Origin: Tianweitania populi
GTDB lineage: Bacteria; Pseudomonadota; Alphaproteobacteria; Rhizobiales; Rhizobiaceae
NCBI RefSeq assembly: GCF_014652875.1
Contig: NZ_BMZQ01000002.1
Span: 1,237,501 to 1,301,500 of the forward strand
Reading direction: 5' to 3'
Length of the DNA: 64,000 nt
The notes under the pieces were generated by a model. It was not told where the DNA came from. It was given only the letters and a program-made list of their open reading frames with translations, and did no database searches. Numbering within the stretch: position 1 is the stretch's first letter; every line of letters starts with the position of its first letter. Made by a program: the position numbers and the translations under genes. Shown in pieces: positions 26,535 to 45,808 of this stretch.

Positions 26535-26560
26535 TGGAGATCCTTTCACGACGTTGGTTA

Positions 26561-28675: not shown

Positions 28676-28745
28676 TTGGAGCCTCCAACAGCAGGGAAAG
28701 ATGGCTAGCGGAAGGCTTGCCGGAACGATGCTACGCCCGATAGTA

Positions 28746-28768
28746 AACTTGACAATATGAGTCAAGTT
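28746..28768. promoter_or_regulatory. iron-responsive operator (IRO box, RirA-type)
   Basis: A perfect 8-bp inverted repeat AACTTGAC-N7-GTCAAGTT lies in the 131-bp divergent spacer between the TonB receptor and the heme-binding-protein gene. It contains TGA-N9-TCA (28750-28764), the core of the IRO box bound by the rhizobial iron regulator RirA. It can serve both promoters. Confidence 0.72.
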
Positions 28769-28806
28769 AAGCGATGAGAATGTTTCTACACGAGGAGTTG
28801 AGGCAG

Positions 28807-29697
28807 ATGGTTCGAAGACGAAATGGAATGATTGCGCTTGTTGAGCGGCGCGTTCGATGCGCGCTGGCGGGGGCTGCCGTCGCTGCGATGACCTTTGCCG
28901 CACAAGCGCAGGAAGCGGTTGATTATCGCCGTATCGTTTCGCTAGGGCCAGACGTCACGGAGATCGCCATGGCTCTGGAAGCAGCGGATCGGATCATCGC
29001 AGTCGATCGTTCCAGCCGTTTTCCCGACGCCGCCAACACCAAGCCCAATCTGGGTTATCGACGCACGCTATCGGCCGAAGGCGTCCTGGCCTTGTCGCCC
29101 GACCTCATCCTGGCTGCCGAAGATATTGGCCCGCCGGAAGCGGTCGACGTGCTCAAAGCCACCAACGTGCCTATCGTCTTTGTGCCCGAAGGCAATTCGG
29201 AAGCTGGCATCGCGAAGAAGATCGAAGTGATCGCAGTCACACTCGGCCAGGCAGAAGCGGGCCAAGCACTGTCGGAGCGTGTGCGGAATGAATTCAGGCA
29301 GGCAGCCGCGCTCGGTGCCGCAATCCCAACAGCCGAGCGGAAGCGCGTCGTATTCTTCCACGGCCTTGTTCGCTTGACAGGCGCCGGATCAGAAACGGCG
29401 GCAGATGCGATCATCCAGCTGTCGGGCGGCATCAATCCGCTTGCGGACTACAAGGGCTACAAAGCGGTTTCAGAAGAAAGCCTCCTGCAGGCGCGACCGG
29501 AAGTCGTCTTGATGCTGTCGGATGGTAAAGGCGGTCCGACGCCTGAAGAAGTCTTCTCCAATCCATCTCTCGCCGCAACGCCGGCGGGCAAGTCCAAAGC
29601 ACTGATTACGCTTGACGGACCATACATGCTTGGCTTCGGCCCACGAACGGCGAACGCCATTCGCGGTCTTGCGCATGCGCTTTATGGAGAACGTTGA
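28807..29697 (+). CDS. hmuT: heme ABC transporter periplasmic binding protein, HmuT-like
   Basis: A type III (BtuF/HmuT) binding protein of 296 residues from the chosen start, with a signal region ALAGAAVAAMTFAAQAQ. It opens with the class pattern RIVSLGPDVTEIAMALEAADRIIAVDRSSRFP. The segment NLGYRRTLSAEGVLALSPDLILAAEDIGPP has the Tyr typical of heme-binding HmuT/ShuT. I took the ATG behind GAGG at 28807; two earlier ATGs are in frame. The usual hmuU and hmuV genes do not follow, so the protein would need a permease encoded elsewhere. Confidence 0.88.
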   Translation: MVRRRNGMIALVERRVRCALAGAAVAAMTFAAQAQEAVDYRRIVSLGPDVTEIAMALEAADRIIAVDRSSRFPDAANTKPNLGYRRTLSAEGVLALSPDLILAAEDIGPPEAVDVLKATNVPIVFVPEGNSEAGIAKKIEVIAVTLGQAEAGQALSERVRNEFRQAAALGAAIPTAERKRVVFFHGLVRLTGAGSETAADAIIQLSGGINPLADYKGYKAVSEESLLQARPEVVLMLSDGKGGPTPEEVFSNPSLAATPAGKSKALITLDGPYMLGFGPRTANAIRGLAHALYGER

Positions 29698-30248
29698 GGA
29701 CTTCACTCCCCCGGTGGTGCTCGACTTCGTCAAGCGGACGAAAGAAACATCTGCCTCCGCACGCATTGTGCTGCCCGAGGGCCCGATAGCGTCGGACTGC
29801 ATTTCTCCGACTTCGGCTACGTCTCTCCAATACGCTCGACGATCCGGCGCATTCGAAACACAATGCTCCGAAGCCAATCTTCGTAATGGCCTTTCACAGG
29901 CATGACCCGGATGGGTCGCGGGTGATCAACAGAGCGAGGATACAAGCGCGCTTACTTAACCCAGCCCAGGTAGCAGCTGGATTTCATTCGTTAAGGCGCC
30001 GGTTCGCTAGACCCGCCTTTAGCCTGCTGGCGCGAAACGCGAGCGATGCTTTGTGCGAGCATCATCCCCATCCTGAAAATCATGGCGAGCCATACCACGG
30101 CATTTGAGCGCGGTTGGTAGCTCCGCTGATCGTCGCGAAGACCTTAGTTTCGAAGGTCAACGGCAACCTTGACGAGGTTGCCAAATTCGAATAGCCTACA
30201 AATATCAAAACATCATTTCATTATTTGAAACACTTGGGAGGGTGGTTG
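29698..30248. other. intergenic region without a recognisable gene
   Basis: About 550 bp between hmuT and the iclR-type regulator. Open frames here are short, lack ribosome sites and show no family motif. I looked for remnants of hmuU/hmuV and saw none. The last 40 bp are AT-rich and hold a likely promoter/operator for the next operon. Confidence 0.6.
30216..30230. promoter_or_regulatory. candidate IclR operator
   Basis: TTTCA-TTATT-TGAAA, a 15-bp palindromic element in an AT-rich tract 19 bp before the regulator ATG. Length and AT-rich palindromic form resemble IclR-family sites. It would control the whole 30249-42327 operon by autoregulation. Confidence 0.5.
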
Positions 30249-31046
30249 ATGGGGGGAGCATCGTCGAGCGAGGGCGGCAAATTGCCTGCTGGCACAGGCA
30301 CGCTCGACATGGCGTTGAAGCTCGTCGAATTTCTTGCCATTCAAAGCGCACCCCAGTCTCTTGCCCAGATCGCCAAGGCGTTCGATGCCTCGAAGGCAAC
30401 AGTTTATCGTCACCTTGTCACGCTCCAGCGCCACGGCTTTGTGCGGCAGGATGCAGAAACCAGTCGCTATGAGCCTGGGGTCAAGCTCCTGGTATTGGGT
30501 GAAGCCGTTCGCGGACGCTTCGACGTCGCGACGGTCGCAAGCGATGATGTCGCCGAACTCGGCAGTCTGACCGGCCAAGCCGTTACCATCTGCCGAATGA
30601 TCGACGGGAAGCTCGTCGTGCTCGACCTTGTCCATGGGCGCACTGTGATCGAGTTTGGTACGCGGCCTGGAACCGAACTCTCGATTCATTCAACGGCGCA
30701 CGGCAAGGTCTGGCTGTCGTTCGGCCCGGAGGATTTGCTTGAGCGGGTGGCGAGCCAGTCGATGCATCCCTGGACGCCAACGACGATTACGGATGCTCAA
30801 GCGCTTCGGAAAGAAATCGAAATCGTCAGGAAGCGCGGCTGGGCTGTTGCGCCCGACGAGTTGATCACTGCGGTTAACGCTCTGGCGGTGCCGATCTTCA
30901 ATCACAAAAATCAAATTGCAGGCTCGCTGGCGATCGTGGGGGCAACCCAGTTCATCCCGATTACGCCGAAGCCCGAGCAGATCGAGGCGGTCCTTGCCGC
31001 TGGGCGCAGGATCTCCGAACGACTTGGCTGGAGGAATGATCGATGA
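30249..31046 (+). CDS. IclR-family transcriptional regulator
   Basis: A 265-residue IclR regulator: N-terminal winged helix (about 15-75, with LAQIAKAFDASKATVYRHLVTLQRHGFV) and C-terminal effector domain (about 85-260, with HSTAHGKVWLS and ALAVPIFNHKNQIAGSLAIVG). Start at 30249, after GGGAGG at 30237-30242; an upstream in-frame start has no ribosome site. Its stop overlaps the HyuA-like start (ATGA), so the regulator is the first gene of its own catabolic operon. The effector is probably an organic acid. Confidence 0.92.
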   Translation: MGGASSSEGGKLPAGTGTLDMALKLVEFLAIQSAPQSLAQIAKAFDASKATVYRHLVTLQRHGFVRQDAETSRYEPGVKLLVLGEAVRGRFDVATVASDDVAELGSLTGQAVTICRMIDGKLVVLDLVHGRTVIEFGTRPGTELSIHSTAHGKVWLSFGPEDLLERVASQSMHPWTPTTITDAQALRKEIEIVRKRGWAVAPDELITAVNALAVPIFNHKNQIAGSLAIVGATQFIPITPKPEQIEAVLAAGRRISERLGWRNDR

Positions 31047-33118
31047 CCTATTCGCTAGCGGTCGATATCGGTGGCACCTTTACGGATATCGTTCTGCGCA
31101 ATTCCGACGGAAGGCTGATCGTCGACAAGACTTTGACCACCCATGAAGACCTGCTGACCGGTTTCTTCGGCGGCGTGAACTCTGTTCTCGGCCATGCGGG
31201 AATTTCATCGCATGCCGTCGATGGCGTTGTTGTGCATGCCACCACGGTGGTGACGAACGCGCTCATCGAACGCAAGGGACCGGCAACCGCTCTCGTGGTC
31301 ACGGATGGATTTCGCGATGTGCTCTCCATTCGCAACGAGCACCGCTATGATATGTACGATCCACAGATCGAGTTCCCCGAGCCGCTGGTTCCGGAACACC
31401 TGACCTTCGGTGTCATCGAGCGGACGCTGGCGGACGGCACCGTGCTTGTCTCGCCATCGAAGGAGGACATCAGCGCGCTGGCGGTACAAATTCGCGAAAG
31501 CGGCGCGAAATCAGTCGCCGTATGCTTCCTGAACAGCTTCATCAACGCGCAGAACGAAACTTTGGTCGCCAGCGAACTAGCGCGTCTGCTCAATGACATC
31601 TTCATCTGCACATCGTCGGACGTTGCGCCGCAGATCCGCGAATATCCCCGTGCGTCTACCGCAACGGTGAACGCCTACACGATGCCGATTTCGCAGCCTT
31701 ACCTGCGCCGGCTTAGCGACCGTCTGCGGTCGGAAGGGTTTGCCAACACGCCGCTCATCATGCTGAGTTCAGGCGGTGTCGTCGGCGCGGAAACGGCCGG
31801 TCGCAATCCCGTGCGGATGATCGAGAGCGGTCCGGCCGCGGGCGCCTTGGCCGCCTGTCATTATGCCGAAGTGCTCGGGATCGACCGGCTGATGTCGTTT
31901 GACATGGGGGGCACCACGGCCAAGGCGTGCTTGATCGAAAACCGCACGCCGCTGATTACCGGCCTGTTCGAGGTCGATCGCCGGTATCGCTTCAAGGACG
32001 GCAGCGGATTGCCTGTGACCGTGCCGTCGATCGATCTGATCGAAATCGGTGCCGGCGGCGGCTCGATCGCGCATGTCGATGCGCTTGGGCTGCTGAAGGT
32101 GGGGCCGGAAAGCGCAGGCTCCAATCCTGGTCCGGCCTGTTACGGTCGTGGTGGCAGAGAAGCGACCGTAACGGATGCCGATCTCGTGCTTGGCCTTATC
32201 GATGCCGGCAATTTCCTCGGCGGCGACATGCAACTCGACAAGGCTGCGACCGAGCAAGCGATGTCGAAGCTCGGTGACAACCTCGGAACCTCGGGCGTGC
32301 AGGCCGCGCGTGGCATCTACCGCGTTGTGACCGAAGCGATGGCCTCGGCCGCGCGTTCGCATGCCACCGATCGCGGCGTGGATTATCGCGGCCTGCCGCT
32401 CTTTGCTTTTGGTGGCGCAGGCCCGCTGCATGCCTGCGGCGTTGCCGAGCTTCTGCAAAGCTCGTCCGTGATCGTGCCGCCGCGATCGAGCGTGCTGTCC
32501 GCCTTCGGCACGTTGGTAACGCCGCTTCGCCTCGATCTCGTTCGCAGCGATCTCGTCCGGCTCGATGATATCGACTGGGAGCGGGTGGAGACGGTAATCG
32601 GCGAGCTGGAGATGGAAGGTCGCGCCGCGCTGCTTGAAGCCGGCTGCGCCGCATCCGACATCGAAATCCACGTCGGTGCCGATATGCGCTATTTTGGCCA
32701 GCAGCACGAAGTCCCCGTCACGTTTGACGCGGACCCCCGCCAGGCACGTGACACGGCAGCTCTTTCACACCTGTTCGCCGAGGCCTACCGCACGCTCTAT
32801 GGCGTCAATCCCAACCACGTCCCCGTCGAAATCGTATCCTGGCGCATCACGGTGAACGGGCCGGCGATCCGCTTTCATGCGGCTGGGCAGCCTGGCAGCG
32901 CGCCCGGCACACCGAAGACGCATCGCCCGGTCCATGCATGGCAGGACAACGAGATGGTGCCTGTGTTCGACCGCCGGGACCTTGCCGTCGGCCAAGAGGT
33001 TCAAGGCCCGCTGATTATCGAGGAACGCGAAACCACCACCGCCATCCCGCCCAACTGGGTTGCGACCATCGATCACATCGGCTGCATCGTGGCCACCCGC
33101 TTTTCGCGCGCGAACTGA
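31043..33118 (+). CDS. HyuA/oxoprolinase-A-like ATP-dependent subunit
   Basis: A 691-residue protein of the hydantoinase/oxoprolinase/acetone-carboxylase A family. The phosphate-binding motif VDIGGTFTDIVL is at residues 7-18, and MSFDMGGTTAKACLI marks the second actin-like lobe; ALFAFGGAGPLHACG is a strong family block. Such subunits hydrolyse ATP to activate a substrate for ring opening (hydantoin, oxoproline) or carboxylation (acetone, acetophenone). The partner HyuB-like subunit follows after 12 bp. The operon's acyl-CoA ligase and thiolase favour a carboxylase-type role, but hydantoinase activity is not excluded. Confidence 0.92.
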   Translation: MTYSLAVDIGGTFTDIVLRNSDGRLIVDKTLTTHEDLLTGFFGGVNSVLGHAGISSHAVDGVVVHATTVVTNALIERKGPATALVVTDGFRDVLSIRNEHRYDMYDPQIEFPEPLVPEHLTFGVIERTLADGTVLVSPSKEDISALAVQIRESGAKSVAVCFLNSFINAQNETLVASELARLLNDIFICTSSDVAPQIREYPRASTATVNAYTMPISQPYLRRLSDRLRSEGFANTPLIMLSSGGVVGAETAGRNPVRMIESGPAAGALAACHYAEVLGIDRLMSFDMGGTTAKACLIENRTPLITGLFEVDRRYRFKDGSGLPVTVPSIDLIEIGAGGGSIAHVDALGLLKVGPESAGSNPGPACYGRGGREATVTDADLVLGLIDAGNFLGGDMQLDKAATEQAMSKLGDNLGTSGVQAARGIYRVVTEAMASAARSHATDRGVDYRGLPLFAFGGAGPLHACGVAELLQSSSVIVPPRSSVLSAFGTLVTPLRLDLVRSDLVRLDDIDWERVETVIGELEMEGRAALLEAGCAASDIEIHVGADMRYFGQQHEVPVTFDADPRQARDTAALSHLFAEAYRTLYGVNPNHVPVEIVSWRITVNGPAIRFHAAGQPGSAPGTPKTHRPVHAWQDNEMVPVFDRRDLAVGQEVQGPLIIEERETTTAIPPNWVATIDHIGCIVATRFSRAN

Positions 33119-33130
33119 GGAGGATCGGCC

Positions 33131-34678
33131 ATGGACGGCGTTGAACTCGAAATTCTCTGGTCGAACCTGATCGGCATCGTGACCGAGCGCGCCAAGGCGC
33201 TGCAGCGCATCGCCTTTTCGCCGATCGTGCGCGAAGCAGGCGATCTGGCCTGCGCGCTATTTGACCAACGTGGGCGCATGGTGGCGCAAGCCAATACCGG
33301 CACTCCCGGTCACATCAACTCGCTCGCCTTCGCTGGCGGTCATCTTGTGAAGGAGTTTGCCGGGCGGTGCGAGCCGGGCGACGTCCTCATCACCAACGAC
33401 CCCTGGCTCTCGGCCGGCCACTTCTTCGACATCACGATCCTAACGCCGATCTTCAACGGCGACCGATTGATCGCCTATATTGGCTCGACCATTCACCACA
33501 CGGATATCGGCGGCTATGGCATCGGCGCCGGTGCGCGGGACGTGCATGAAGAAGGGCTGTGGATCCCGCCGCTGAAGCTCTACGAGCGCGGTGTGGCCAA
33601 CCCCGTTCTTTCAGCCATGATCCGCCGCAACGTGCGCACGCCCGATGCTGTGTTCGGTGATCTCTCGGCACAGGTATCGAGCGGTCGCGCGGCGGCCGAA
33701 CACCTCATCGCGTTGTGCGAACGGCAGGGTGTCGAAGACATCGAGGGTTTGTCGGACGAGATCATTGCTCGTTCCGAGGAAGCGACGCGCGCTGCCATCC
33801 GCAAGCTGAAGCCTGGCACCTATCACGGCGAGTCGAACTTCGATGTGCCCGGTGGCGAAATCATCACGTTGAAGACGGCTGTCACCGTGGATGCGGAAGC
33901 GGGCGGCATCCTTGTTGATTTCGAGGGATCGTCGAAGCAGACGTCAACCGGCATCAACGTCGTTCTCAACTACACGCACGCTTATTCGACCTTCGCGATC
34001 CGCTCGTGCCTGAATCCTGATCTGCCCAACAACTACGGCAGCCTGGCTCCGATCGAGATCAGAGCTCCAAAGGGCTCCATCATCAACTGCGAATATCCGG
34101 CGCCGGTAAATGCGCGCCATGTGGTCGGCATGTATGTGCCCATGCCGATCCTGAAGGCGCTCCACCAGGTGATCCCGAACCAGGTTCTGGCGGAAGGCTC
34201 AGGCGCGGTGTGGACGATCCAGATCCAGGGCAAGAACGAGGCTGGCCAGCCTTTCACCTCGTCCATGTTCAACTATTCCGGCGGCATGGGCGCGCGGGCC
34301 GAGAAGCCGGGCCCGAGTGCAACCTGTTACCCCACAGGTGTTGCCGCCGTTCCCATCGAGATCCTCGAAGCCTCCATGCCGATCGTCTTCGACAAGAAGG
34401 AATTGCGGCGCGGTTCGGGAGGCGACGGGCGTGTGCGCGGTGGCGATGGTCAGTCTATCGGCTTCCACATGCGCACCCAGGAGCCTTGGCTGCTGAACGC
34501 CGTGCCAAGCCGCCTTCAAGAAGGACCTGACGGCATTGGCGGCGGTAGCGCGGGTGCCGCCGGCAAATTCCTCGTTAATGGCCAGTCAGTCAGCGAGGCA
34601 CGCAAACTCACGATGCAGCCGGAGGACCGAGTGCTTTTGGAAACACCGGGCGGCGGAGGCTTCGGCCCGCCCGGCTGA
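33131..34678 (+). CDS. HyuB/oxoprolinase-B-like subunit
   Basis: A 515-residue partner of the HyuA-like protein. Family blocks are visible: EILWSNLIGIVTERAKALQRIAFSPIVREAGD, the ITNDPWLSAGHFFDI metal-site region (His of GHFFD), STIHHTDIGGYG, and RGGDGQSIGF near the end, closing with ETPGGGGFGPPG. B subunits carry the metal-dependent half of the reaction on the phosphorylated substrate. GAGG precedes the ATG. Size is in the normal hydantoinase-B range (about 500-600). Confidence 0.92.
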   Translation: MDGVELEILWSNLIGIVTERAKALQRIAFSPIVREAGDLACALFDQRGRMVAQANTGTPGHINSLAFAGGHLVKEFAGRCEPGDVLITNDPWLSAGHFFDITILTPIFNGDRLIAYIGSTIHHTDIGGYGIGAGARDVHEEGLWIPPLKLYERGVANPVLSAMIRRNVRTPDAVFGDLSAQVSSGRAAAEHLIALCERQGVEDIEGLSDEIIARSEEATRAAIRKLKPGTYHGESNFDVPGGEIITLKTAVTVDAEAGGILVDFEGSSKQTSTGINVVLNYTHAYSTFAIRSCLNPDLPNNYGSLAPIEIRAPKGSIINCEYPAPVNARHVVGMYVPMPILKALHQVIPNQVLAEGSGAVWTIQIQGKNEAGQPFTSSMFNYSGGMGARAEKPGPSATCYPTGVAAVPIEILEASMPIVFDKKELRRGSGGDGRVRGGDGQSIGFHMRTQEPWLLNAVPSRLQEGPDGIGGGSAGAAGKFLVNGQSVSEARKLTMQPEDRVLLETPGGGGFGPPG

Positions 34679-34721
34679 AGGGAAACATCGTCAATCGTCA
34701 ACTGAACGTGGGAGGAGAATC

Positions 34722-35858
34722 ATGTTCAAGACAGCATTTGGAAGGCAGTTTTTCGCATCTGTCGTTTCAGTGGTTGCGCTTTCAAGCGCAGCTCAGGCCG
34801 ACGATGTCTTCAAGGTTGGCATTTCAGCCGGCCTGACCGGTTATGCCGCAACAGTCGATCGCGCCTGGAGCGATGGCGTACAGACCGCTGTCGATACCTT
34901 GAACGCCAAGGGCGGCATCATGGGTCGAAAGCTCGAAGTCGTTGTCGAAGACAACCGATCAAATCCGCAGGAAGCCGTCACCGTATACCGGAAGATGGTG
35001 AGTTCGGACGAGGTGAACCTCTTTGCCAGCGGCTGCGTGTCGGCAGGAAATGCGGCGGCCGCGCCGATGGTGGCCAAGGCTGAAATCCCGATGATCCTCT
35101 GCTCGATCCTGCCGAAGGACGCCGCATGGGCGTTTACGACCTTGCCGCCGGCAGGCTTCGAGATCGAAAAGCGGTTCGAATATCTTCGCGACAAGACGGA
35201 TATCCGCAAGGTCGGCGTGCTGCATGATCCCACGCCCTACGCGCTTCTGCAGAAGGACGTCGCGCAGAAGGTTGCTGCAACATACGGCATCGAGGTCGTA
35301 TCGGTAGAAGCCTATAAGCAGGACGATGCCGATCTCAGCGTTCAGCTGAGCAAGATGCAGGCGGCGGGTGCCGGCGCGGTTATGAAGATCGGGCTGGGCG
35401 GCACGACGCTCACGGCTGCCAAGAACCTGAAGCAGCTCGGCTCCCCCATGCTTCTGTTGACCAGCCTCGAAGACCTCGCCGTCTTCAAGCCGGTTGCCGA
35501 GGTTTTGGGCGACAAATTCTTCTTCGTCGCCTCGCCATCACAAGTGTACGAGGTTTATCCAGACGGCGGCCTGAAAACCGCGATCGGAGAATTTCTCGAA
35601 CCATGGCGTGCCAAGTTCGGCGATCGCGATCCCAACTGGGCGTCGCGCGGCTGGGACAGCATCATGCTTGCGGCAAAGGCGATCGAGGCGGGCCAGTCGT
35701 TCGAGGGTTCAGCCATTCGCGACAACCTGGAAAAAATTACCGGTTTCCAGGGCACGACGGGCAGCTACGACATGTCTGCGGAAAAGCATCAGGGGATTTC
35801 GACCAATCCATTCGTGGTTGCGCAGATCATCGAAGGCAAAGTCAGGATTGCACAATGA
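34722..35858 (+). CDS. Liv-type ABC transporter substrate-binding protein
   Basis: A 378-residue type I periplasmic binding protein of the branched-chain amino acid/aromatic-acid family. The signal peptide ends SSAAQA-DD; the mature start is VFKVGISAGLTGYAATVDRAWSDG. LEVVVEDNRSNPQEAVTVYRKMV is the usual second block. The ATG follows GGAGGAG; a longer frame through hyuB is rejected. This family often binds aromatic or short-chain acids rather than leucine when placed in catabolic operons. It overlaps the LivF-type ATPase start (ATGA). Confidence 0.92.
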   Translation: MFKTAFGRQFFASVVSVVALSSAAQADDVFKVGISAGLTGYAATVDRAWSDGVQTAVDTLNAKGGIMGRKLEVVVEDNRSNPQEAVTVYRKMVSSDEVNLFASGCVSAGNAAAAPMVAKAEIPMILCSILPKDAAWAFTTLPPAGFEIEKRFEYLRDKTDIRKVGVLHDPTPYALLQKDVAQKVAATYGIEVVSVEAYKQDDADLSVQLSKMQAAGAGAVMKIGLGGTTLTAAKNLKQLGSPMLLLTSLEDLAVFKPVAEVLGDKFFFVASPSQVYEVYPDGGLKTAIGEFLEPWRAKFGDRDPNWASRGWDSIMLAAKAIEAGQSFEGSAIRDNLEKITGFQGTTGSYDMSAEKHQGISTNPFVVAQIIEGKVRIAQ

Positions 35859-36604
35859 ACCCTGCCGCGACCTCTTCCAGCCTGCCGGAAGTGGCTCAGC
35901 CTGTTCTCGATGTGCGGAGCTTGAGCGCCTCTTACGGTCATGTGGAGGCGCTCAGGAGTGTGGATATTTCGGTTGGGCGCGGCGAACTCGTCGCCGTGCT
36001 CGGTCCAAACGGCGCGGGAAAGTCGACGCTGCTTCGTGCCATCATGGGGCTCATCCCCAATCACGGCGAGGTCCTTTTCCAGGGAAACGCCCTGACCCGC
36101 CGCAAACCCGGCGCGGCGGCGACAAAGGGCGTGGTTCTGGTTCCAGAGGGTCGGGGCATCTTCGGCCCGATGACGGTTCTCGAAAACCTCGAACTCGGCG
36201 CCTACAGCGTTGGGCGAGACAAGAAGGAAGTGGAGCGCAGGCTAACGAGCGTTTTCGGCTTGTTTCCGCGCTTGAAGGAGCGCTTCAAACAGACTGCGGG
36301 CTCGATGTCCGGCGGCGAACAGCAAATGGTGGCGGTGGGTCGCGCCATGATGGCCGATCCCAAGGTGCTGCTTCTCGACGAGCCCTCGCTCGGCCTTGCG
36401 CCCCGCGTCACGGGGGAAATCCTCGATACGCTCGGCGCGCTCAGCCAAAGCGGTCTGCCGGTGATCCTGGTTGAGCAGAAAGCGCCGCTCGCCCTTCAAC
36501 TGGCCTGTCGCGCTTACCTTCTTTCCCTCGGGCGCATCGTCGCCACGATCAATCCCCGCGAGGTGAAATCCCATGACGAGCTCGCCCAGTACTACTTTGC
36601 CTGA
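35855..36604 (+). CDS. Liv-type ABC ATP-binding protein (LivF-like)
   Basis: A 249-residue LivF-class ATPase: Walker A GPNGAGKST (about 43-51), signature MSGGEQQMVAVGRAMM, Walker B LLLDEPSLGLAP. The compact length without a C-terminal extension is typical. Start at 35855 overlaps the binding-protein stop. It teams with the LivG-like ATPase encoded at 37562. Confidence 0.93.
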   Translation: MNPAATSSSLPEVAQPVLDVRSLSASYGHVEALRSVDISVGRGELVAVLGPNGAGKSTLLRAIMGLIPNHGEVLFQGNALTRRKPGAAATKGVVLVPEGRGIFGPMTVLENLELGAYSVGRDKKEVERRLTSVFGLFPRLKERFKQTAGSMSGGEQQMVAVGRAMMADPKVLLLDEPSLGLAPRVTGEILDTLGALSQSGLPVILVEQKAPLALQLACRAYLLSLGRIVATINPREVKSHDELAQYYFA

Positions 36605-37565
36605 AGCAAGGAGCGCTGTGCAAACAACGCGACTTCCGCTCGCAACTGCGGCTGTTTGGGCAGTGTCGGCTGCCATAGTCGGCTACGCGCTCATCTTTGG
36701 CGGCTATGCGGCGACGATCATTTCCTTTGCCTTGATCTACGCCGTCTTCGTGTCCGGCTTGAATGTCTTCATGGGGCTGACGGCGCAGGTCTCCTTCGGC
36801 CAGAGCGCCTTCGCGGCAATCGGCGGTTATAGTTCTGCCGTGCTGACAACGACCTATGCCTGGCCGCCCCTTGCCGGAATGAGCGCCGGGCTGGTCTTTT
36901 CGCTGCTGGCCGCCTGGGCCATCGGGTTTCCGACGCTACGGCTCAAGGGCCATTATCTTGCGATGGCGACGCTGGCGATCGGGCTCATCACCTATGAAAT
37001 CGCTGTTGAATGGGAATCCGTGACGCAGGGCTATCTTGGCATCTCGGGTATCCCCCCGTTGGGGATCGGGCCATTCGAGGCGGTATCCGACCGGCAGATA
37101 CTCGTCGTCCTGTCCGTTGTCGTGCTGGTGATTGCATTTGCCGTGAAGCGCATTCAGCACTCGCGCTTGGGTCGCTCTTTCGCGGCTGTGGCAGGCAGCG
37201 AGGAAGCTGCTGCCACGCTCGGCATCAACGTGGCGCGTACCAAGCTCGTGTCCTTTCTTTTGGCGGCAGGTCTGGCCTCGATTTCCGGATCGCTGTTCGT
37301 GCATGTCGTCGGCTATGTCTCACCCGAGGTTTTCGGGCTGCATATGGTCATCCTCGCCTTCTCCATGGTGTATATCGGCGGGCTCGGAACGGTAGCCGGG
37401 CCGCTGATCGGAGCCCTGATCGTCAGCATTCTGCCCGAAGTCTTTCGCGGCATGAAGGACAGCCAGGATCTCGCTTACGGCATCGCCTTGATCCTGATCC
37501 TGATCTACGCGCCAAAGGGTATTGCCGGTGTGGCCGGGGCCTTCGATGCAAGGAGAGCGGCGTGA
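36573..37565 (+). CDS. Liv-type ABC permease (LivM-like)
   Basis: A permease of up to 330 residues with about nine hydrophobic segments and the LivM motif LRLKGHYLAMATLAIGL. The frame opens at an ATG that overlaps the LivF end by 32 bp. A GTG at 36618, with AAGGAG four bases upstream, gives a 315-residue protein and may be the true start. Its stop overlaps the GTG start of the LivG-like gene. Confidence 0.9.
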   Translation: MTSSPSTTLPEARSAVQTTRLPLATAAVWAVSAAIVGYALIFGGYAATIISFALIYAVFVSGLNVFMGLTAQVSFGQSAFAAIGGYSSAVLTTTYAWPPLAGMSAGLVFSLLAAWAIGFPTLRLKGHYLAMATLAIGLITYEIAVEWESVTQGYLGISGIPPLGIGPFEAVSDRQILVVLSVVVLVIAFAVKRIQHSRLGRSFAAVAGSEEAAATLGINVARTKLVSFLLAAGLASISGSLFVHVVGYVSPEVFGLHMVILAFSMVYIGGLGTVAGPLIGALIVSILPEVFRGMKDSQDLAYGIALILILIYAPKGIAGVAGAFDARRAA

Positions 37566-38317
37566 GCGCGATCCTTGAAGTGAAGAATGCGACTCGCAGC
37601 TTCGGCGGTCTGGTTGCCGTGAACGACGTGTCGTTTTCGGTCCCATCCCGAGGCGTCACGGCAGTGATCGGGCCGAACGGCGCGGGAAAAACGACGCTGT
37701 TCAACGTCATTGCCGGTACGATTTCGGCAAATGGTGGCACGATCCTGCTGAATGGCGAGGACGTTACGGACTTCAAGCCCGAAGCCAAGGCGGCCAAAGG
37801 GCTTGTGCGGACCTTCCAGCTGGTGAAGCTGTTTCAAGACCTGACAGCCGCCGAGAACGTGAAGGTCGGTTTCCACTTAAAGACCCATGGCGGCCTGTTT
37901 GCGGCTCTGTTCCAGCCAGCTTGGGCGCGCGCGGCGGAGCGCAATTCGGAAAAGACGGCTGCTGATCTTCTTGACCTCGTCGGTCTTTCAAAGGTTGCCC
38001 AGACCTCCGCTTCCATCCTGCCTTACGGGCAACAGCGTTTGTTGGAGATCGCGCGGGCTTTGGCATGCCAGCCGAGCATCCTGTTGCTCGACGAACCGGC
38101 CGCCGGCTTGAATGCGGAGGAAAGCGAGCGGCTTGCCAGAGCCATCCGACGCATTGCCGCTGATGGGACGGCGGTCCTTTTGATCGAACACGACATGAAG
38201 CTCGTCATGGATATCGCCGATGACGTCGTCGTTCTCGATTATGGCCGGAAAATCGCCCACGGAACGCCGGATGCGGTCAGAAATGATCCTGCCGTGCTTG
38301 CTGCTTATCTCGGCTAG
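37562..38317 (+). CDS. Liv-type ABC ATP-binding protein (LivG-like)
   Basis: A 251-residue LivG-class ATPase beginning at a GTG coupled to the LivM stop (GTGA). Walker A GPNGAGKTT, the LivG-specific KGLVRTFQLVKLFQDLT Q-loop, PYGQQRLLEIARAL signature, Walker B LLLDEPAAGLN, and the C-terminal YGRKIAHGTPDAVRNDPAVLAAYLG are all visible. A longer upstream frame within LivM is ruled out by the family length. Confidence 0.93.
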   Translation: MSAILEVKNATRSFGGLVAVNDVSFSVPSRGVTAVIGPNGAGKTTLFNVIAGTISANGGTILLNGEDVTDFKPEAKAAKGLVRTFQLVKLFQDLTAAENVKVGFHLKTHGGLFAALFQPAWARAAERNSEKTAADLLDLVGLSKVAQTSASILPYGQQRLLEIARALACQPSILLLDEPAAGLNAEESERLARAIRRIAADGTAVLLIEHDMKLVMDIADDVVVLDYGRKIAHGTPDAVRNDPAVLAAYLG

Positions 38318-38328
38318 GAGGAACGGGA

Positions 38329-39207
38329 ATGGACAACATCAGCCTCGTCCTGCAGAGCCTGATCAGCGGCATCAGCATCGGCTGCGTTTACGGCCTGATC
38401 GGCATAGGCTTTTGCGTCATCTACAATGCCAGCGGCATCGTGAACTTCGCGCAAGGCGCCTTCGTGATGATCGGCGGCATGGCGACCTCTGTGCTGATGA
38501 CCGATTTTCAGCTGCCTTATGCGGCAGCGGCCATAGGCGCGATCATCATCGCCGGCATCGTTGGCGCGGCGGTGGAGCGTTTGGTCGTGCGGCCGCTATG
38601 GAACCGCAACGTTGCGATATTTGTGATGATCCTGGCCACGCTCGCGGCCCAGATCGTCATCGAGCGAATGGCTTACATCCTCGTCGGAGACCAGCCCAAG
38701 ACTTTGCCGCCCGTCAGCGATCTGCCGCCGATGATGCTTGGCGGCGTTGCTGTGAACATTCAGTCTCTCTGGATCCTGGCAAGTTCGCTGATCATCATCG
38801 CAGCGCTGAACGTGTTCTTCAAGACGAGCCGGACGGGCAAGGCGATGCGCGCCGTATCGATCAATGCTGAAGCGGCTGTTCTTCAAGGCATCCCGGTCTC
38901 GCGCATGCTGACGCTGGCCTTTGTGATCAGCGCCATGCTGGGTGCGATAGCCGGTATTCTGCTGACGCCGACCCAGTACACCGCCTTCAACGTGGGCGTG
39001 CCCTTCGCCATATCCGGCTTCATTGCCGCGATCATCGGCGGCTTCGGCCGCCCGCTCGGTGCGTTCATCGGCGGCATCGCGCTCGGCGTGATCCAGTCCA
39101 TGGCGATCCTGGAACTGGGTGCTGGCTTCAAGAACGTCGCCGCGTTGTCGCTGCTGCTCCTTTTCCTATTCTTCAGGCCGTCCGGCCTGCTTGGAAGTAC
39201 GCGCTAA
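38329..39207 (+). CDS. Liv-type ABC permease (LivH-like)
   Basis: A 292-residue permease with eight or nine membrane segments. The LivH patterns SGISIGCVYGLIGIGFCVIYNASGIVNFAQG near the N-terminus and the conserved GFGRPLGAFIGG loop are plain. GGAGG precedes the ATG. It completes the five-part importer (binding protein, LivF, LivM, LivG, LivH) nested between the HyuAB pair and the CoA enzymes. Confidence 0.92.
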   Translation: MDNISLVLQSLISGISIGCVYGLIGIGFCVIYNASGIVNFAQGAFVMIGGMATSVLMTDFQLPYAAAAIGAIIIAGIVGAAVERLVVRPLWNRNVAIFVMILATLAAQIVIERMAYILVGDQPKTLPPVSDLPPMMLGGVAVNIQSLWILASSLIIIAALNVFFKTSRTGKAMRAVSINAEAAVLQGIPVSRMLTLAFVISAMLGAIAGILLTPTQYTAFNVGVPFAISGFIAAIIGGFGRPLGAFIGGIALGVIQSMAILELGAGFKNVAALSLLLLFLFFRPSGLLGSTR

Positions 39208-39222
39208 TTTTGGGAGGATGTC

Positions 39223-39555
39223 ATGACCATCAAGACGATCGACTGGAACAGCATTCCCTGGACGCCGGTCCGCGAAGGCGTGGATCGCAAGGCATTCGCA
39301 GGCGAGGGCGCCACTGTCACGCTGCATCGTCTCAAGCCCGGCCACGAGCCGAAGCCCCATGCGCATGAGAACGAACAGATCGCCTATATCCTGCAAGGCA
39401 CGATCCGCTTCTTCGTCGGAGACGAGGAGCATCTGCTCGGCCCGGGCGGCCTGTTGGTGGTGCCCCCGAACGTCAGGCATTGGGGCGAGGTCGTCGGTGA
39501 CGAGGATGTCTTGAACCTCGACGTCTTCACGCCGCGACGGCCGGAATATGCCTAA
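39223..39555 (+). CDS. cupin-domain protein
   Basis: A 110-residue single-domain cupin. Motif 1 is HEPKPHAHENEQIAYILQG (His, His and Glu metal ligands, about 44-62) and motif 2 is GGLLVVPPNVRHWGEVVG. GGAGG precedes the ATG, 15 bp after the permease. Small cupins in catabolic operons can be dioxygenases, isomerases, ring-cleaving enzymes or chaperone-like metal binders; the sequence does not decide. Its place between transporter and CoA enzymes suggests a step in the same pathway. Confidence 0.85.
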   Translation: MTIKTIDWNSIPWTPVREGVDRKAFAGEGATVTLHRLKPGHEPKPHAHENEQIAYILQGTIRFFVGDEEHLLGPGGLLVVPPNVRHWGEVVGDEDVLNLDVFTPRRPEYA

Positions 39556-39640
39556 GGCATAGGTCTGCTTGGCCATTCTGCCTTCTCGTGCGGAAGGCTC
39601 GGCATCACCAAACACCGTTATCAAGGTCGGAGATACACTG

Positions 39641-40804
39641 ATGGTATCGATAGTTGGCTGGGGTCATACTGCTTTCGGAAAACATCCGGACAAGTCGCTG
39701 GAAGAGCTTATCCGCCTCGTTGGCACAGAGGCTCTGACGCATGCCGCAATCGATCCCGCGGATGTTGACGGCATCTGGATCGGGCACTTCAACGCCGGTA
39801 TGGTAGCGGATGGCTTTCCGTCATCGCTTGCTCTCGCGATCGATCCTGCGCTGCGGTTTTGCCCGGCGACGCGTGTTGAAAACGCGTGCGCCTCTGGCTC
39901 GGCCGCGGTGTTTGCGGCACGCAATGCGATCGAAGCAGGGCAAGCCAAGATCGCACTGGTAATCGGCGTTGAGAAGATGACCCATCTGCCGACGGCGGAA
40001 GTTGCGGCAGCACTCGGCCACGCGTCCTATCAGCCGGAAGAAAGCGGCTTCACCTTTCCCCAGGTCTTCGCCCGTTTTGCCCAAGCCTATAATCAACAAT
40101 ATGGCGACCAGACCGGGGTGCTGGCGAAGATCGCTGCAAAGAACCACCAGAACGCCATGGCCAATCCCCTGGCGCAGCTTCACAAACCGCTGACGGTGGA
40201 GTTCTGCGCTACGGTCAGCGACAGGAACCCGATCGTCGCCGCTCCCTTGAAAGTCACCGACTGCTCGCTGGTGTCCGACGGCGCAGCGGCGATCGTGCTC
40301 GTTTCGGATGACATTGCGCAAAGCATGGCGCGCTCCGTTCGCTTTCGTGCAGCAGCCCAGGTCAGCGATTACCTTCCCATGTCGCAGCGTGACCTGACGG
40401 CGTTCGAAGGCCCGCGTGAAGCCATCCGCCGCGCCAAGCTGCAGGCTGGTGTCTCCAACGTCGATCTGCATGTGGCGGAGGTCCACGACTGCTTCACGAT
40501 CGCCGAGTTGATGATCTACGAGGCCATGGAACTTGCGCCGCGCGGCAGGGGCGAACAGGCGATCAAGGATGGGGTCGTTTACAAAGGTGGGGCACTGCCG
40601 GTGAACTTGTCTGGAGGGTTGAAGGCCAAGGGCCATCCGGTAGGCGCGACCGGCGTTTCCATGCATGTGATGGTGGCGCGACAGGTTCTCGGCGAGGCCG
40701 ATGACATGCAGGTGCCGGATGCCTCCGTCGGGATGGTCTTCAACATGGGCGGCTCGGGCGTCGCCAACTACTGCTCTATCCTGGAAGCAGAGCGGCTCGC
40801 ATGA
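39641..40804 (+). CDS. SCP2-type thiolase (acyl-CoA C-acyltransferase)
   Basis: A 387-residue thiolase of the SCP2/SCPx branch. The nucleophile is Cys83 in ENACASGSAAV; EVHDCFTIAELM (about 280-291) is the SCP2-type second-cysteine motif; KGHPVGATG (about 329-337) holds the catalytic His. Start at MVSIVGWG, behind GGAG; the upstream extension is unlikely. It would cleave a 3-oxoacyl-CoA with CoA. Its stop overlaps the acyl-CoA ligase start, so ligase and thiolase are made together. Confidence 0.9.
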   Translation: MVSIVGWGHTAFGKHPDKSLEELIRLVGTEALTHAAIDPADVDGIWIGHFNAGMVADGFPSSLALAIDPALRFCPATRVENACASGSAAVFAARNAIEAGQAKIALVIGVEKMTHLPTAEVAAALGHASYQPEESGFTFPQVFARFAQAYNQQYGDQTGVLAKIAAKNHQNAMANPLAQLHKPLTVEFCATVSDRNPIVAAPLKVTDCSLVSDGAAAIVLVSDDIAQSMARSVRFRAAAQVSDYLPMSQRDLTAFEGPREAIRRAKLQAGVSNVDLHVAEVHDCFTIAELMIYEAMELAPRGRGEQAIKDGVVYKGGALPVNLSGGLKAKGHPVGATGVSMHVMVARQVLGEADDMQVPDASVGMVFNMGGSGVANYCSILEAERLA

Positions 40805-42327
40805 ACATCGCATCCTGGCTTCAAAGGACCGCGCGGCTGTCAGGCGATCGGCCGGCGATCCTCCTTGGAGAAACGGTGCTTGCCGATTACCGCGCCTTCT
40901 TCGACCGCGTCTCGTCTCTGGCGGCATCGCTGCGCGCCGACAACATTGAGCCGGGCGACAGGGTAGCGATCGCGGCAAAGAACTGTCCCGATTATCTGAT
41001 CGCCATGTTCGCAGCGTGGATCGCCGGCGCCGTCATAGTTCCCGTCAATGCCAAGCTTCATGCCAAGGAGGTAGCCTGGATCCTCGACAATAGCGGGGCA
41101 AAGCTGGTTTTCGCCGATCCGGACATGGCAGGCGCACTGCATGGCCATTTCACGGGACCGATCCGGATCCTCGGCAGCGAGTTGGCGGAACGTCCCGGCA
41201 CGGAAGCCCCGCTGCCGCTTCATTCCTGCCGCGCCGACGCCAATGCCTGGCTGTTCTACACGTCCGGTACGACAGGCCGGCCGAAAGGCGTCCAGATCAC
41301 CCATGGAATGTTGGCTGCGATGTCGCTCGCTTATCTCAGCGACGTTGATGACATCAGGCCGGAAATGGCTGCTTACTATGCCGCCCCGATGTCGCACGGC
41401 GCTGGCCTCTACGCGCCTGTTCATGTGCTGCGAGGTACGCGTCATCTGCTGCCGCACGCCGGACATTTCGATCCTGATAATCTCCTAGACCTTTCGGAGC
41501 GTTGCGGACCGACCTCGCTGTTCCTGGCGCCGACCATGGTGCAGCGCCTTAAGGAACAAGCGAAGGCGACAGGGAGGCGTGGTGAGGGCATCGGTACCAT
41601 CGTTTACGGCGGCGGGCCGATGTACCGAGCCGACATCGAAGACGCCCTATCCTGGTTCGGCCCGAAGTTCGTGCAGATCTTTGGCCAAGGTGAGTGCCCA
41701 ATGGCTATCACAGCGTTGTCGCGCAAGGATGTTGCCGATCGCTCGCATCCACGATGGCGCGAGCGGCTTGCCAGCGTAGGTCGCGCACAATCGTTCGTGG
41801 AAGTCGCCATCGGCACGCATGATGGTGCTTTGCTGCCGACCGGCGAACTCGGTGAAATCATGGTGCGCGGCCTGCCTGTGATGCCGGGCTATTGGCGCAA
41901 CCCAGAAGCCAATGCGGCTACCCTGCGCGACGGCTGGCTGATGACCGGTGATGTTGGCTATCTCGACGAAGATGGCTACCTCACGCTTCAGGACCGTTCG
42001 AAGGATGTGATCATTTCTGGCGGCACCAACATCTATCCGCGCGAAGTCGAGGAAGTCCTGCTGATGCATCCTTCTGTGAAGGAGGTATCGGTCGTAGGCC
42101 GCCCGTCGGCGGAGTGGGGCGAGGACGTCGTGGCTTTTATCGTGCTAGCAAACGGTGCCGAGTTCGACCGAGCGGCTCTGGAGCAGCAGTGCTTGGCGGA
42201 GATTGCACGCTTCAAGAAGCCGAAGGACTATGTCGTCGTTCAAGAATTGCCGAAAAACAATTATGGGAAGATTCTAAAGACAGCAATACGTGCTTCGCTG
42301 GCGAAAATGGACAAATATAGTTTTTAG
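40801..42327 (+). CDS. AMP-dependent acyl-CoA synthetase/ligase
   Basis: A 508-residue member of the ANL adenylating family. The P-loop is FYTSGTTGRPKGVQ (about 152-165), motif A5 is FGQGECPM, and the C-terminal hinge/lysine region is LTLQDRSKDVIISGGTNIYPREVEEVL with catalytic Lys in NYGKILKTAIR. It forms an acyl-AMP and then an acyl-CoA from a carboxylic acid. The ATG overlaps the thiolase stop. Substrate is unknown; a beta-keto acid made by the HyuAB-like enzyme is my favoured inference. It is the last gene of the operon. Confidence 0.92.
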   Translation: MNIASWLQRTARLSGDRPAILLGETVLADYRAFFDRVSSLAASLRADNIEPGDRVAIAAKNCPDYLIAMFAAWIAGAVIVPVNAKLHAKEVAWILDNSGAKLVFADPDMAGALHGHFTGPIRILGSELAERPGTEAPLPLHSCRADANAWLFYTSGTTGRPKGVQITHGMLAAMSLAYLSDVDDIRPEMAAYYAAPMSHGAGLYAPVHVLRGTRHLLPHAGHFDPDNLLDLSERCGPTSLFLAPTMVQRLKEQAKATGRRGEGIGTIVYGGGPMYRADIEDALSWFGPKFVQIFGQGECPMAITALSRKDVADRSHPRWRERLASVGRAQSFVEVAIGTHDGALLPTGELGEIMVRGLPVMPGYWRNPEANAATLRDGWLMTGDVGYLDEDGYLTLQDRSKDVIISGGTNIYPREVEEVLLMHPSVKEVSVVGRPSAEWGEDVVAFIVLANGAEFDRAALEQQCLAEIARFKKPKDYVVVQELPKNNYGKILKTAIRASLAKMDKYSF

Positions 42328-42453
42328 TGAGCAGATCTAAAAACTCTTTCGGTATCGGTATGACTCGAAAAAATAGCACTTTGAGTAAATCTGATAGCCT
42401 GACAATCTTGCGGCATACAGTGCCTCGCTAAACCAGTCGTTGTGCTTCAGTCA

Positions 42454-43791
42454 TCAGCCGCCTGTTGCTGCGAGGGCAATTGCCGCGGCCACGTCGTGGT
42501 ATCGGTGGGAAAGCATACTTGTACCAACGCGAAGATGATTTCCTGGCAGTACCGTAAACTTCTTGCCGGGTTCAACGGCTAAACCGTGTGCCGCGAGCGT
42601 GACGATCGCGAATGGTTCGTTTTCTACCGCCACCCAAGTGCAAAGGCCGCTGCCAGCTGTGCAGACGATGCCGCGAGCTTCCAAGCGTTCACACAAAGCG
42701 TCGCGGCGTTTTTGGTAGATCGTCCGCGCCTGTTGGAGAAAAATCGCCGTGGAGGCCTCGCGCAACAGGAAAGCCGCAGCGCCTTGCAGGATGCGGCTCG
42801 TCCACGCCGCGCTGAAGCTGCGATAAGACTGGATCTGTTCAACAGTGGACTTCGGTCCTGACAGAACCGCCAATCGCAGATCAGGTCCAAGCGTCTTGGA
42901 AAAGGACAGGATGTGGATGACCCGGTCCGGCAAGTCCTTGCCCAGCGATTGCTGCGGAGCCTCCGAAATATCTGCGACACCATCGTCTTCGATGATCAGA
43001 ATGTCGCTGTTTCGAACCACTTCTACCAGTTGGCCCAGCCGCTCCTTCGTAACCGTGCGACCGGTGACGGAATGCAGGCGCGGCTGGAAGATGAAGGCCA
43101 CCGGCTTCTGGCGCATCGCGTCTTCGAGCGAAGCAGGAAGCGGGCCGTGTTCGTCGCATCGCACCGGGATGATCCGCGCACCTTGATGCTCGAGAATGTC
43201 GAGAAGGCGCATGGCGGTGGGGTCCTCGATCGCAACCGCCGCGCTGGGCGGCACCAGCGCGTGGATTGCCGTGTAGACTGCGTTGTAGCCACCGTTGGTC
43301 GCAAGAAAGGCTTGCGCATCATAGGGCCAACTGCGGCGGATCTCCGTTTCCAGTTCCGGCAGGATCAGGATGCGTTCATAGCTGTTGAGGTTGGTTGCCG
43401 TTGCACCATGAGCCAGAGCCCGCTCCATCGGCGGCAGCAGGGCCGGGTCGGGGACGGCTAGCCTGAGGTCGAGGACGTCCGCCCCATAGTGGCCCGAATT
43501 CGCCAGCCGTTCAGGCTTGGCGACGAAGCGCTCTTCGCTCACCCAGGTTCCGTTGCGACCGCGGCCGGTGATGATCTTCTGGCGTCGAAGCTCGCTCCAT
43601 GCCTCCGAAATCGTTGCCGGACTGACACCAAGGGAAAAGGCAAGATCCCGGATCGGCGGCAGCTTGGCTCCGACCGGGAGAGCTCCCGTGCGGATCAGCG
43701 CGCTGGTTTCGAGCGCGATCCCTCGGGTTGTTCGATCGGTCAGCTTTTCAGCCAGCCATCCCGCCTCGACAGACACGATCCGACTCCCCAA
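42454..43791 (-). CDS. MocR/GntR-type regulator with aminotransferase domain
   Basis: A 445-residue MocR regulator: a GntR winged helix (about 22-90, with IRDLAFSLGVSPATISEAWSELRRQ) and a fold-type I aminotransferase domain with PLP lysine in LSFSKTLGPDLRLAVLSG. It differs from EnuR in sequence and serves a different module. It is divergent from the dihydroxyphthalate-decarboxylase-like gene; the spacer contains a period-20 direct repeat, as expected of MocR operators. The effector is likely an amino compound or derivative that reacts with PLP. Confidence 0.9.
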   Translation of the reverse strand: MGSRIVSVEAGWLAEKLTDRTTRGIALETSALIRTGALPVGAKLPPIRDLAFSLGVSPATISEAWSELRRQKIITGRGRNGTWVSEERFVAKPERLANSGHYGADVLDLRLAVPDPALLPPMERALAHGATATNLNSYERILILPELETEIRRSWPYDAQAFLATNGGYNAVYTAIHALVPPSAAVAIEDPTAMRLLDILEHQGARIIPVRCDEHGPLPASLEDAMRQKPVAFIFQPRLHSVTGRTVTKERLGQLVEVVRNSDILIIEDDGVADISEAPQQSLGKDLPDRVIHILSFSKTLGPDLRLAVLSGPKSTVEQIQSYRSFSAAWTSRILQGAAAFLLREASTAIFLQQARTIYQKRRDALCERLEARGIVCTAGSGLCTWVAVENEPFAIVTLAAHGLAVEPGKKFTVLPGNHLRVGTSMLSHRYHDVAAAIALAATGG

Positions 43792-43811
43792 TGATTCTAT
43801 TGTTCAGTAAC

Positions 43812-43846
43812 GTAAATGCGTTTGATCAGTTGTAAATGAACATTTA
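43812..43846. promoter_or_regulatory. candidate MocR operator (period-20 direct repeat)
   Basis: GTAAATG occurs at 43812 and 43832, exactly 20 bp apart, and the second copy forms TAAATG-AA-CATTTA (43833-43846). The element lies in the 93-bp divergent spacer and can control both genes. Direct repeats two helical turns apart are the usual MocR binding architecture. Confidence 0.58.
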
Positions 43847-43884
43847 GGTTTCGCCTCTCGAACCCTGTGACGAGAGTACCCAAT

Positions 43885-44862: not shown

Positions 44863-44920
44863 CGGCAAGCTGGAAACTTCAATGTCGCAATCGCCAGTTG
44901 ATAATAAAAGGGGAATAAAG

Positions 44921-45808
44921 ATGTTGCACAAGACACTGATCGCTCTGGCACTGGCCGGCGCCACTTACTCCGGCGCAGCTTGGTCGCAAGACCAGGCTGC
45001 CAAGCTCGAAGTCAATCAGGCACTGCATGATAAGCTGCCGGACGAGATCAAGGCAGCAGGCAAGATGACCTCGGTCAACAACGGGTCGTTTCCGCCCTAT
45101 GAAATCGTAACTGGCACCGAAATGACCGGTGCAAGTGCCGACCTGACCGATGCGCTCGGACAGATCCTCGGCGTGAAGATCGAGCATGCAACGGTGGGCG
45201 GGCTTCCCGCCTTGCTGGCAGGCGTAAACTCGGGCCGATACCAGTTCGCATTCGGTCCTGTCGGTGACTTCAAGAGCCGCGAAGAGTCCAACGACTTCGT
45301 TGATTGGGTTCAGGAGTTCGTCGTCTTCGCGGTACAGAAGGGCAATCCCAAGGGCATCGTTTCGCTCGATACAGCCTGCGGCCAGCGTGTCGCCGTGATG
45401 GCCGGCGGCTCAGCAGAACGCGTTATCCAGACGCAAACTGAAAAGTGTAAGACCGACGGCAAGGAAGCCATCGCAATCCAGTCTTACACCGACCAGCCGA
45501 GCTCGATCCTGGCTGTTCGCTCCAAGCGCGCCGATGCCTTCTTTTCCTCGCAAGCGCCGCTAACTTATTTCGTATCGCAGGCGAACGGGCAGATGGAGCT
45601 GACGGGCGTCGGCGAAAAAAACGGCTTTGAGGAGCTGTATCAGGGTGCCGTGGTGCCAAAAGGCTCGCCGTTGGGGCCTGTCCTCTTGGAGGCGATGAAG
45701 GCTTTGATCGATAACGGCACTTACGGCACCATCATGAAGAAGTGGGGCCTCGAAAACAACATGATCAGGGAGCCGGGCATCAATCTGGGCGGTCAGCTGC
45801 CAAAATGA
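44921..45808 (+). CDS. polar amino-acid-type ABC substrate-binding protein
   Basis: A 295-residue type-3 solute-binding protein with signal peptide MLHKTLIALALAGATYSGAAWS. The mature region includes AGKMTSVNNGSFPPYEI and GASADLTDALGQILGVKIEH, normal for this family. AAAAGGGG precedes the ATG; an upstream frame that runs into the previous gene is rejected. It overlaps the permease start (ATGA). Confidence 0.9.
   Translation: MLHKTLIALALAGATYSGAAWSQDQAAKLEVNQALHDKLPDEIKAAGKMTSVNNGSFPPYEIVTGTEMTGASADLTDALGQILGVKIEHATVGGLPALLAGVNSGRYQFAFGPVGDFKSREESNDFVDWVQEFVVFAVQKGNPKGIVSLDTACGQRVAVMAGGSAERVIQTQTEKCKTDGKEAIAIQSYTDQPSSILAVRSKRADAFFSSQAPLTYFVSQANGQMELTGVGEKNGFEELYQGAVVPKGSPLGPVLLEAMKALIDNGTYGTIMKKWGLENNMIREPGINLGGQLPK

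Follow-up and report, generated by a model that had tools for sequence, protein, structure and literature searches.

Within the window analysed here, a stretch of 64,000 nucleotides from contig NZ_BMZQ01000002.1 of Tianweitania populi, eleven genes on the + strand occupy positions 30249-42327 and form one tight operon that includes a HyuAB pair of the hydantoinase/oxoprolinase type. The operon is led by an IclR-family regulator (30249-31046; Pfam IclR_C and HTH_IclR; start ATG at 30249, in an open reading frame (ORF) opening at TTG 30225), followed by HyuA, the adenosine triphosphate (ATP)-binding or alpha subunit of 691 amino acids (31043-33118; Hydant_A_N, Hydantoinase_A and Hydant_A_C), and HyuB, the metal-site or beta subunit of 515 amino acids (33131-34678; Hydantoinase_B over its full length). 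A Liv-type importer comes next, comprising a periplasmic binding protein (34722-35858; Peripla_BP_6), a LivF-type ABC ATPase (35855-36604), a LivM-type permease (36573-37565), a LivG-type ABC ATPase (37562-38317) and a LivH-type permease (38329-39207), with both ATPases matching the ABC ATPase family in Pfam and both permeases matching BPD_transp_2. The series ends with a small, distantly KdgF-like cupin (39223-39555; Cupin_2), an SCP2-type thiolase (39641-40804; Pfam thiolase; NCBIfam PRK07516, 608 bits against a cut-off of 412) and an adenosine monophosphate-forming acyl-coenzyme A (CoA) ligase (40801-42327; AMP-binding). Taking 35855 and 37562 as the starts of LivF and LivG, successive gaps measure -4, 12, 43, -4, -32, -4, 11, 15, 85 and -4 bases, the widest lying between cupin and thiolase. 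Both strands of 29600-42600 hold five terminator-like sites, fewer than in shuffled sequence (mean 10.8), and no RNA family reached its gathering score in that interval. Coordinates, strand, Pfam matches and tight spacing thus agree with the single IclR-led operon of HyuAB, Liv importer, cupin, ligase and thiolase proposed in an earlier reading of the DNA made without database searches (the sequence-only reading). The coupling of thiolase and ligase proposed there is likewise borne out by a 4-base overlap, of the same length as that between IclR and HyuA, with the thiolase gene first and the ligase second.

Both Hyu subunits resemble two-gene cyclic amide hydrolases more closely than the ketone carboxylases Acx and Apc. 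Among NCBIfam models, caprolactamase alpha gave the highest HyuA score (477 bits, with a cut-off of 1000), compared with 272 for ApcC and 201 for ApcA, and HyuB scored higher with CapB (167) than with ApcD (85), all of these values being below cut-off. Against PDB chains, HyuA reached 368 bits with caprolactamase, 334 with N-methylhydantoinase, 255 with ApcC and 207 with AcxA, and HyuB reached 177 with N-methylhydantoinase, 126 with CapB, 84 with ApcD and 51 with AcxB. FastTree phylogenies (136 HyuA and 129 HyuB rows) put HyuA and HyuB alike on the branch of the two-gene hydrolases, and IQ-TREE analyses of HyuA, run with 45 rows and again with 44, kept the window clade separate from Acx and Apc; in the 44-row tree it groups with CapA and N-methylhydantoinase (support 97/97). 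Forcing HyuA into a common clade with the carboxylases costs 34 log units and was rejected by the approximately unbiased (AU) test (p=0.0017). The carboxylase gamma subunit (PF08882) had no match in the genome and none in 14 control genomes, while 24 of 385 same-class genomes contained one, and HyuB is shorter than carboxylase beta subunits (684-776 amino acids in PDB chains). The Hyd enzymes (lactamases, hydantoinases and oxoprolinases) are distinguished in PMC5214803 by having two genes only, in the order hydA-hydB, with subunits shorter than those of carboxylases; at this locus subunits of 691 and 515 amino acids are encoded in the order hyuA-hyuB with 12 bases between them. The extra subunits of the carboxylases, gamma for Acx and alpha' plus gamma for Apc, have no counterpart in the operon, where hyuA and hyuB stand alone.

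The sequence-only reading was right to count only two Hyu-type subunits, while the ketone carboxylase membership it put forward is rejected on the tree, the AU test and the absent gamma subunit, together with the short HyuB. Nor was the outcome it had named as contrary to its view observed, namely firm clustering of HyuAB with 5-oxoprolinase or N-methylhydantoinase: the HyuA clade lies apart from both and carries a distinctive Glu/Lys pair. These comparisons place HyuAB as a separate subfamily within the two-gene ATP-dependent cyclic amide hydrolase branch. Bicarbonate-dependent ATPase activity, suggested earlier as an assay, would not discriminate between hydrolase and carboxylase, because caprolactamase, a hydrolase, shows such activity (PMC8453981). 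HyuA-like proteins in general are widespread, with a match at 1e-30 or better in 263 of 297 genomes of the family.

Residues were mapped on CapA and CapB using the numbering of PMC8453981. HyuA keeps the CapA ATP residues that were checked (D8, T12, D15, K29, D287, T291 and GxxPGP at 359-364), and the HyuB metal ligands D38, H97, D100 and H122 correspond to D41, H99, D102 and H124 of CapB, with Gln replacing the first metal His in 7 of 92 HyuB rows of the window clade. As the ATP motifs and the Asp-His-Asp-His site are largely kept in carboxylases as well, these residues do not discriminate between the two activities. Two substrate-site positions differ from this characterised lactamase: CapA Asn269/Asp302 correspond to HyuA Glu261/Lys294 in 95 of 95 clade rows. 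The vicinal disulphide Cys410-Cys411 of CapA is also lost, with Cys399-Tyr400 in HyuA. Glu261/Lys294 match E248/K281 of Apc alpha' (chain 5l9w_b), a subunit presumed to phosphorylate bicarbonate (PMC5214803) and whose Lys281 is named in PMC8453981. However, the pair is missing from Apc alpha, from Acx and from the five alpha' sequences that other genomes contribute to the 44-row tree, and it occurs in HyuA copies that show no sign of a carboxylase setting, such as L151 from the same genome, which neighbours an SBP_bac_3 protein and a class I/II aminotransferase. For these reasons the pair is a hint of carboxylase-type chemistry, not a proof. It needs three changes on the 44-row HyuA tree, which makes repeated gain or loss probable.

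Among characterised enzymes, caprolactamase CapAB of Pseudomonas jessenii shares with the window a two-subunit architecture, the ATP residues, the Asp-His-Asp-His site and the same branch of the 44-row tree, at identities of 34% (alpha) and 27% (beta), and differs in the substrate-site positions and the disulphide given above. N-methylhydantoinase (7hk5) lies in the same branch, with identities of 32% (alpha) and 30% (beta), but is a single fused chain of 1288 amino acids with Met/Asp instead of Glu/Lys and a Gln at one of the metal-binding His positions. That Gln occupies position 820, equivalent to CapB H124, where the remaining rows have His (36 of 37 outside the clade and 92 of 92 within it).

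The conservation of the locus was followed in two samples. A scan of contigs for HyuA relatives confirmed 179 stretches, of which the best 80 were kept, with record titles of Alpha-, Beta- and Gammaproteobacteria and Actinomycetota; 48 of these 80 were full loci with at least 9.9 kb on each side, in which neighbours were counted at set identity floors. HyuB was present in all 48, IclR and cupin in 43 each, and a Liv binding protein with permease in 34, and because the same gene families recur across these loci the operon association is beyond chance. Within the 34 Liv-bearing full loci, a ligase was found in 11, a thiolase in 7 and an HpcH/HpaI aldolase in 12, with at least one of the three in 16; at least one was present in 22 of the 48 full loci, and the totals across all 80, many of them cut by contig ends, were 19, 11 and 26. 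The second sample comprised 297 evenly drawn genomes of the same family, with at most three HyuA candidates scored per genome. HyuA of at least 56% identity was found, among the matches listed, in 17 of them, the window's genome included. In about 10 kb around these 17 genes a cupin was always present, a ligase in 15, an aldolase in 11, a thiolase in 7 and a BKACE (PF05853) in 3, where one locus (G010) was read only up to inside HyuB and another (G243) was cut by a contig end. The two samples overlap (the contigs of G028, G127, G178, G054 and G189 are of the same length as those of L006, L007, L008, L009 and L011) and their counts are not independent.

The thiolase is intact in its catalytic positions C83, H282/C284 and H332, which do not vary among the 41 aligned rows and fall in the motifs of SCP2-type thiolases (the nucleophile Cys, HDCF and GHPxGATG). 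In the 41-row thiolase tree, members adjacent to HyuAB occur in four places, and well-supported branches force four label changes (gains or losses); a single clade of the window-type and Metarhizobium/Rhizobium-type HyuAB-linked thiolases was rejected (p 1.6e-5). The ligase tree (52 rows) similarly needs 6-7 label changes. In both trees the label 'other' means that no HyuA of at least 56% was seen nearby, most such loci having about 1.5 kb of flank, and rows were left out for one thiolase (L157, the window itself) and 17 ligases (duplicates of the window or of loci already represented, paralogues at a distance, and L031, whose 46% ligase lies on the minus strand). The simplest reading of the trees is that thiolases and ligases were recruited to HyuAB loci separately. 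By chance, about 0.002 ligases would be expected per 22 kb locus, as judged from 22 places of at least 45% identity in 61 genomes of about 4 Mb each. Since separate lineages recur at the locus, the link of HyuAB to CoA ligase and thiolase is real, as the sequence-only reading had proposed, and a homologous pair also follows an Apc-like operon described below. The thiolase-ligase pair is a portable module that is found in other settings too (G008, G030 and G031). No DUF35 thiolase partner is encoded in the operon; the genome has a single PF01796 match, at another place.

Two lines of evidence concern the compound that reaches the ligase. Firstly, in three of the 17 family genomes with HyuA a BKACE gene stands between aldolase and ligase, and L066 is a fourth locus with a BKACE, there a more distant one, with another ligase-thiolase-DUF35 set upstream. 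BKACE enzymes strip a beta-keto acid of its acetyl group, which ends up in acetyl-CoA (PMC6365646). Secondly, genome G014 has genes resembling apcA, the gamma subunit (PF08882, 142 bits), apcC and apcD, a 265 amino acid ORF in the ApcE position without a family match and a CobW protein gene, and behind these come a thiolase (61%) and a ligase (53%) with an adjoining BKACE (263 bits). Because its NCBIfam scores are below the Apc cut-offs, the G014 operon is Apc-like and not proven Apc. Taken together, the BKACE recurrence and the Apc-like parallel indicate a beta-keto acid, which the HyuAB route therefore probably delivers.

Known pathways offer parallels to this arrangement. The anaerobic indoleacetate pathway includes a ligase and a thiolase. 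Its HyuAB-type lactamase, IaaCE, acts in a CoA-linked route, a likeness drawn from published description (PMC5214803, PMC8453981). ApcABCDE with its benzoylacetate-CoA ligase pairs a HyuAB-type enzyme with a CoA ligase in one operon (PMC5214803), as the window does, and shares the Glu/Lys pair through its alpha' subunit, while the window lacks the second alpha, gamma and epsilon subunits and has its own subunits in another branch. In comparison with BKACE pathways, in three relatives a BKACE adjoins the ligase, in the place that the thiolase takes in the window, but no BKACE is encoded in the operon itself and two are found elsewhere in the genome.

We favour a catabolic operon in which HyuAB opens a cyclic amide and the resulting beta-keto acid is activated with CoA and cleaved by thiolysis, a reading we hold to be plausible with the balance about even. 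In this scheme, the Liv importer would take up a small N-heterocyclic compound, HyuA would activate it with ATP and the metal site of HyuB would open the ring. The ring-opened product would be a beta-keto acid or become one through the action of the cupin; if the ring bore an oxo group at the position beta to its amide carbonyl, opening alone would yield the beta-keto acid. The ligase would then form the CoA ester, which the thiolase would split into acetyl-CoA and a shortened acyl-CoA, with induction presumably controlled by the IclR protein. CoA activation and thiolysis are suggested by protein families and by recurrence, and ring opening by HyuAB is predicted from branch membership. Of the earlier proposal, the CoA-dependent cleavage thus stands, by virtue of the recurrence, and the carboxylase membership is not supported, given the tree, the AU test and the missing gamma subunit. 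A KdgF-like role for the cupin is a guess (best PDB match 4e2g, 48.5 bits; KdgF 5fq0, 41 bits), and the closest solved relatives of the binding protein are of Liv type (best 88 bits) and give no hint of the ligand.

Several observations weigh against this scheme. Glu261/Lys294 replaces the Asn/Asp of caprolactamase and the Met/Asp of N-methylhydantoinase, so the acceptor chemistry may differ from that of known lactamases. The deep order of the HyuA tree is not fully stable, as the 45-row tree put CapA with the carboxylases; that tree held two rows flagged by the program as long branches (L149 and L152), and when these were dropped and Apc alpha' was added, in the 44-row tree, CapA shifted to the hydrolase side. 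In addition, 18 of the 34 Liv-bearing full loci have no ligase, thiolase or aldolase in the stretch, and all three are missing from 26 of the 48 full loci. The operon lacks the HpcH/HpaI aldolase that many relatives have; the nearest copy encoded in the genome is 39% identical and located elsewhere. A search for an aldolase remnant between cupin and thiolase gave an alignment score of 36 in both comparisons, with shuffled means of 38 and 37, and the idea was discarded.

An unlikely but serious alternative is a minimal two-subunit carboxylase, in which HyuA would make carboxyphosphate, or also phosphorylate an enol, and HyuB would carboxylate a ketone to the beta-keto acid used by ligase and thiolase. 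The match of Glu261/Lys294 to the presumed bicarbonate kinase Apc alpha' is consistent with it, as is the thiolase-ligase pair, with BKACE beside it, behind the Apc-like operon of G014, sub-cut-off as its scores are. The tree position, the AU result and the lack of a gamma subunit argue against it, as does the uneven distribution of the pair, missing from Apc alpha, Acx and five alpha' rows and present in HyuA copies such as L151. A related and rather improbable version is that the HyuAB subfamily marked by IESGP...DMGGTTAK reached the bicarbonate-kinase site of Apc alpha' by a separate route and would here be a minimal, gamma-less ketone or enol carboxylase feeding cleavage by thiolase or BKACE. 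Equally doubtful is the opening of a hydantoin-like ring or cyclic ureide, with ligase and thiolase needed only later, when the carbon skeleton is processed separately. Some Caulobacter-type and gammaproteobacterial loci speak for it, since there HyuAB is accompanied by a TRZ/ATZ-type amidohydrolase, joined at part of them by a Rieske oxygenase and an allophanate-hydrolase-like amidase, which fits a nitrogen-rich ring, but the eleven operon genes include neither an enoyl-CoA hydratase nor a hydroxyacyl-CoA dehydrogenase, and BKACE, which acts on free beta-keto acids, recurs. That the last two genes, thiolase and ligase, are mere passengers with no link to the rest of the operon is very improbable: the pair does occur without HyuAB (for example at 73%/72% in G008, where genes for a family III CoA-transferase and an acyl-CoA dehydrogenase lie close by) and the three cleavage-related genes are absent from over half of the Liv-type full loci, but HyuAB-linked thiolases are spread over four places of their tree, and 15 of the 17 family loci carry a ligase, far above the chance expectation.

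Hydantoinase/oxoprolinase genes are abundant in these bacteria, and published work on them stresses how few members have a tested reaction. The locus gives one HyuAB subfamily a chemical context, the CoA-dependent cleavage of a probable beta-keto acid, and the two-residue Glu/Lys signature makes the choice between hydrolase and carboxylase testable with one enzyme. Among titles and abstract openings, with few subscription journals covered, no description of this operon was found, and the sole match joining hydantoinase, thiolase and IclR was a caprolactam paper.

Other arrangements were noted around related genes. Locus L262, from the same genome (C5:16000-35000), encodes at 8521-14306 a BKACE above the 3,5-dioxohexanoate cleavage cut-off (565 bits, cut-off 430), together with a DUF6282 protein, an HpcH/HpaI aldolase (39% to that of L006), TRAP-like genes recognised by eye and a nearby IclR gene, without HyuAB. 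In eight loci (L044, L045, L046, L054, L055, L058, L069 and L071) HyuAB is accompanied by two VOC proteins and an amidohydrolase of the TRZ/ATZ type, and part of these loci also encode an MFS carrier, an allophanate-hydrolase-like amidase, a Rieske oxygenase and a 4,5-DOPA-dioxygenase-like protein. A third layout, in L147 (4874-10443) and L148 (4995-9946), consists of a HyuA with the Glu/Lys pair, HyuB, a gamma-related protein of 93-94 amino acids and an isochorismatase-family protein; the small protein of L148 matches PF08882 at 39 bits, and the isochorismatase matches PF00857 in L148 and was likened by eye in L147. Several ligase relatives adjoin a small PAS and LuxR-type (GerE) regulator (for example L225 9725-10279 and L229 9206-9754), with the domains tested in L229 and recognised by eye at the other loci.

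In the window itself, the operon is preceded at 25473-29697 by genes for a siderophore-interacting reductase, a TonB-dependent receptor and a periplasmic binding protein, the last ending at 29697. Downstream, 42454-51306 contains a MocR-like (GntR/aminotransferase) regulator running towards the operon, an ABC importer and an M20-type amidohydrolase, after which TRAP transporter genes lie on the - strand. Further upstream, the - strand of 15884-24752 encodes ectoine utilisation, with DoeB (621 bits, cut-off 403), EutC (571, cut-off 472) and the regulator EhuR (588, cut-off 480), followed by genes for an aminotransferase and for an aldehyde dehydrogenase.

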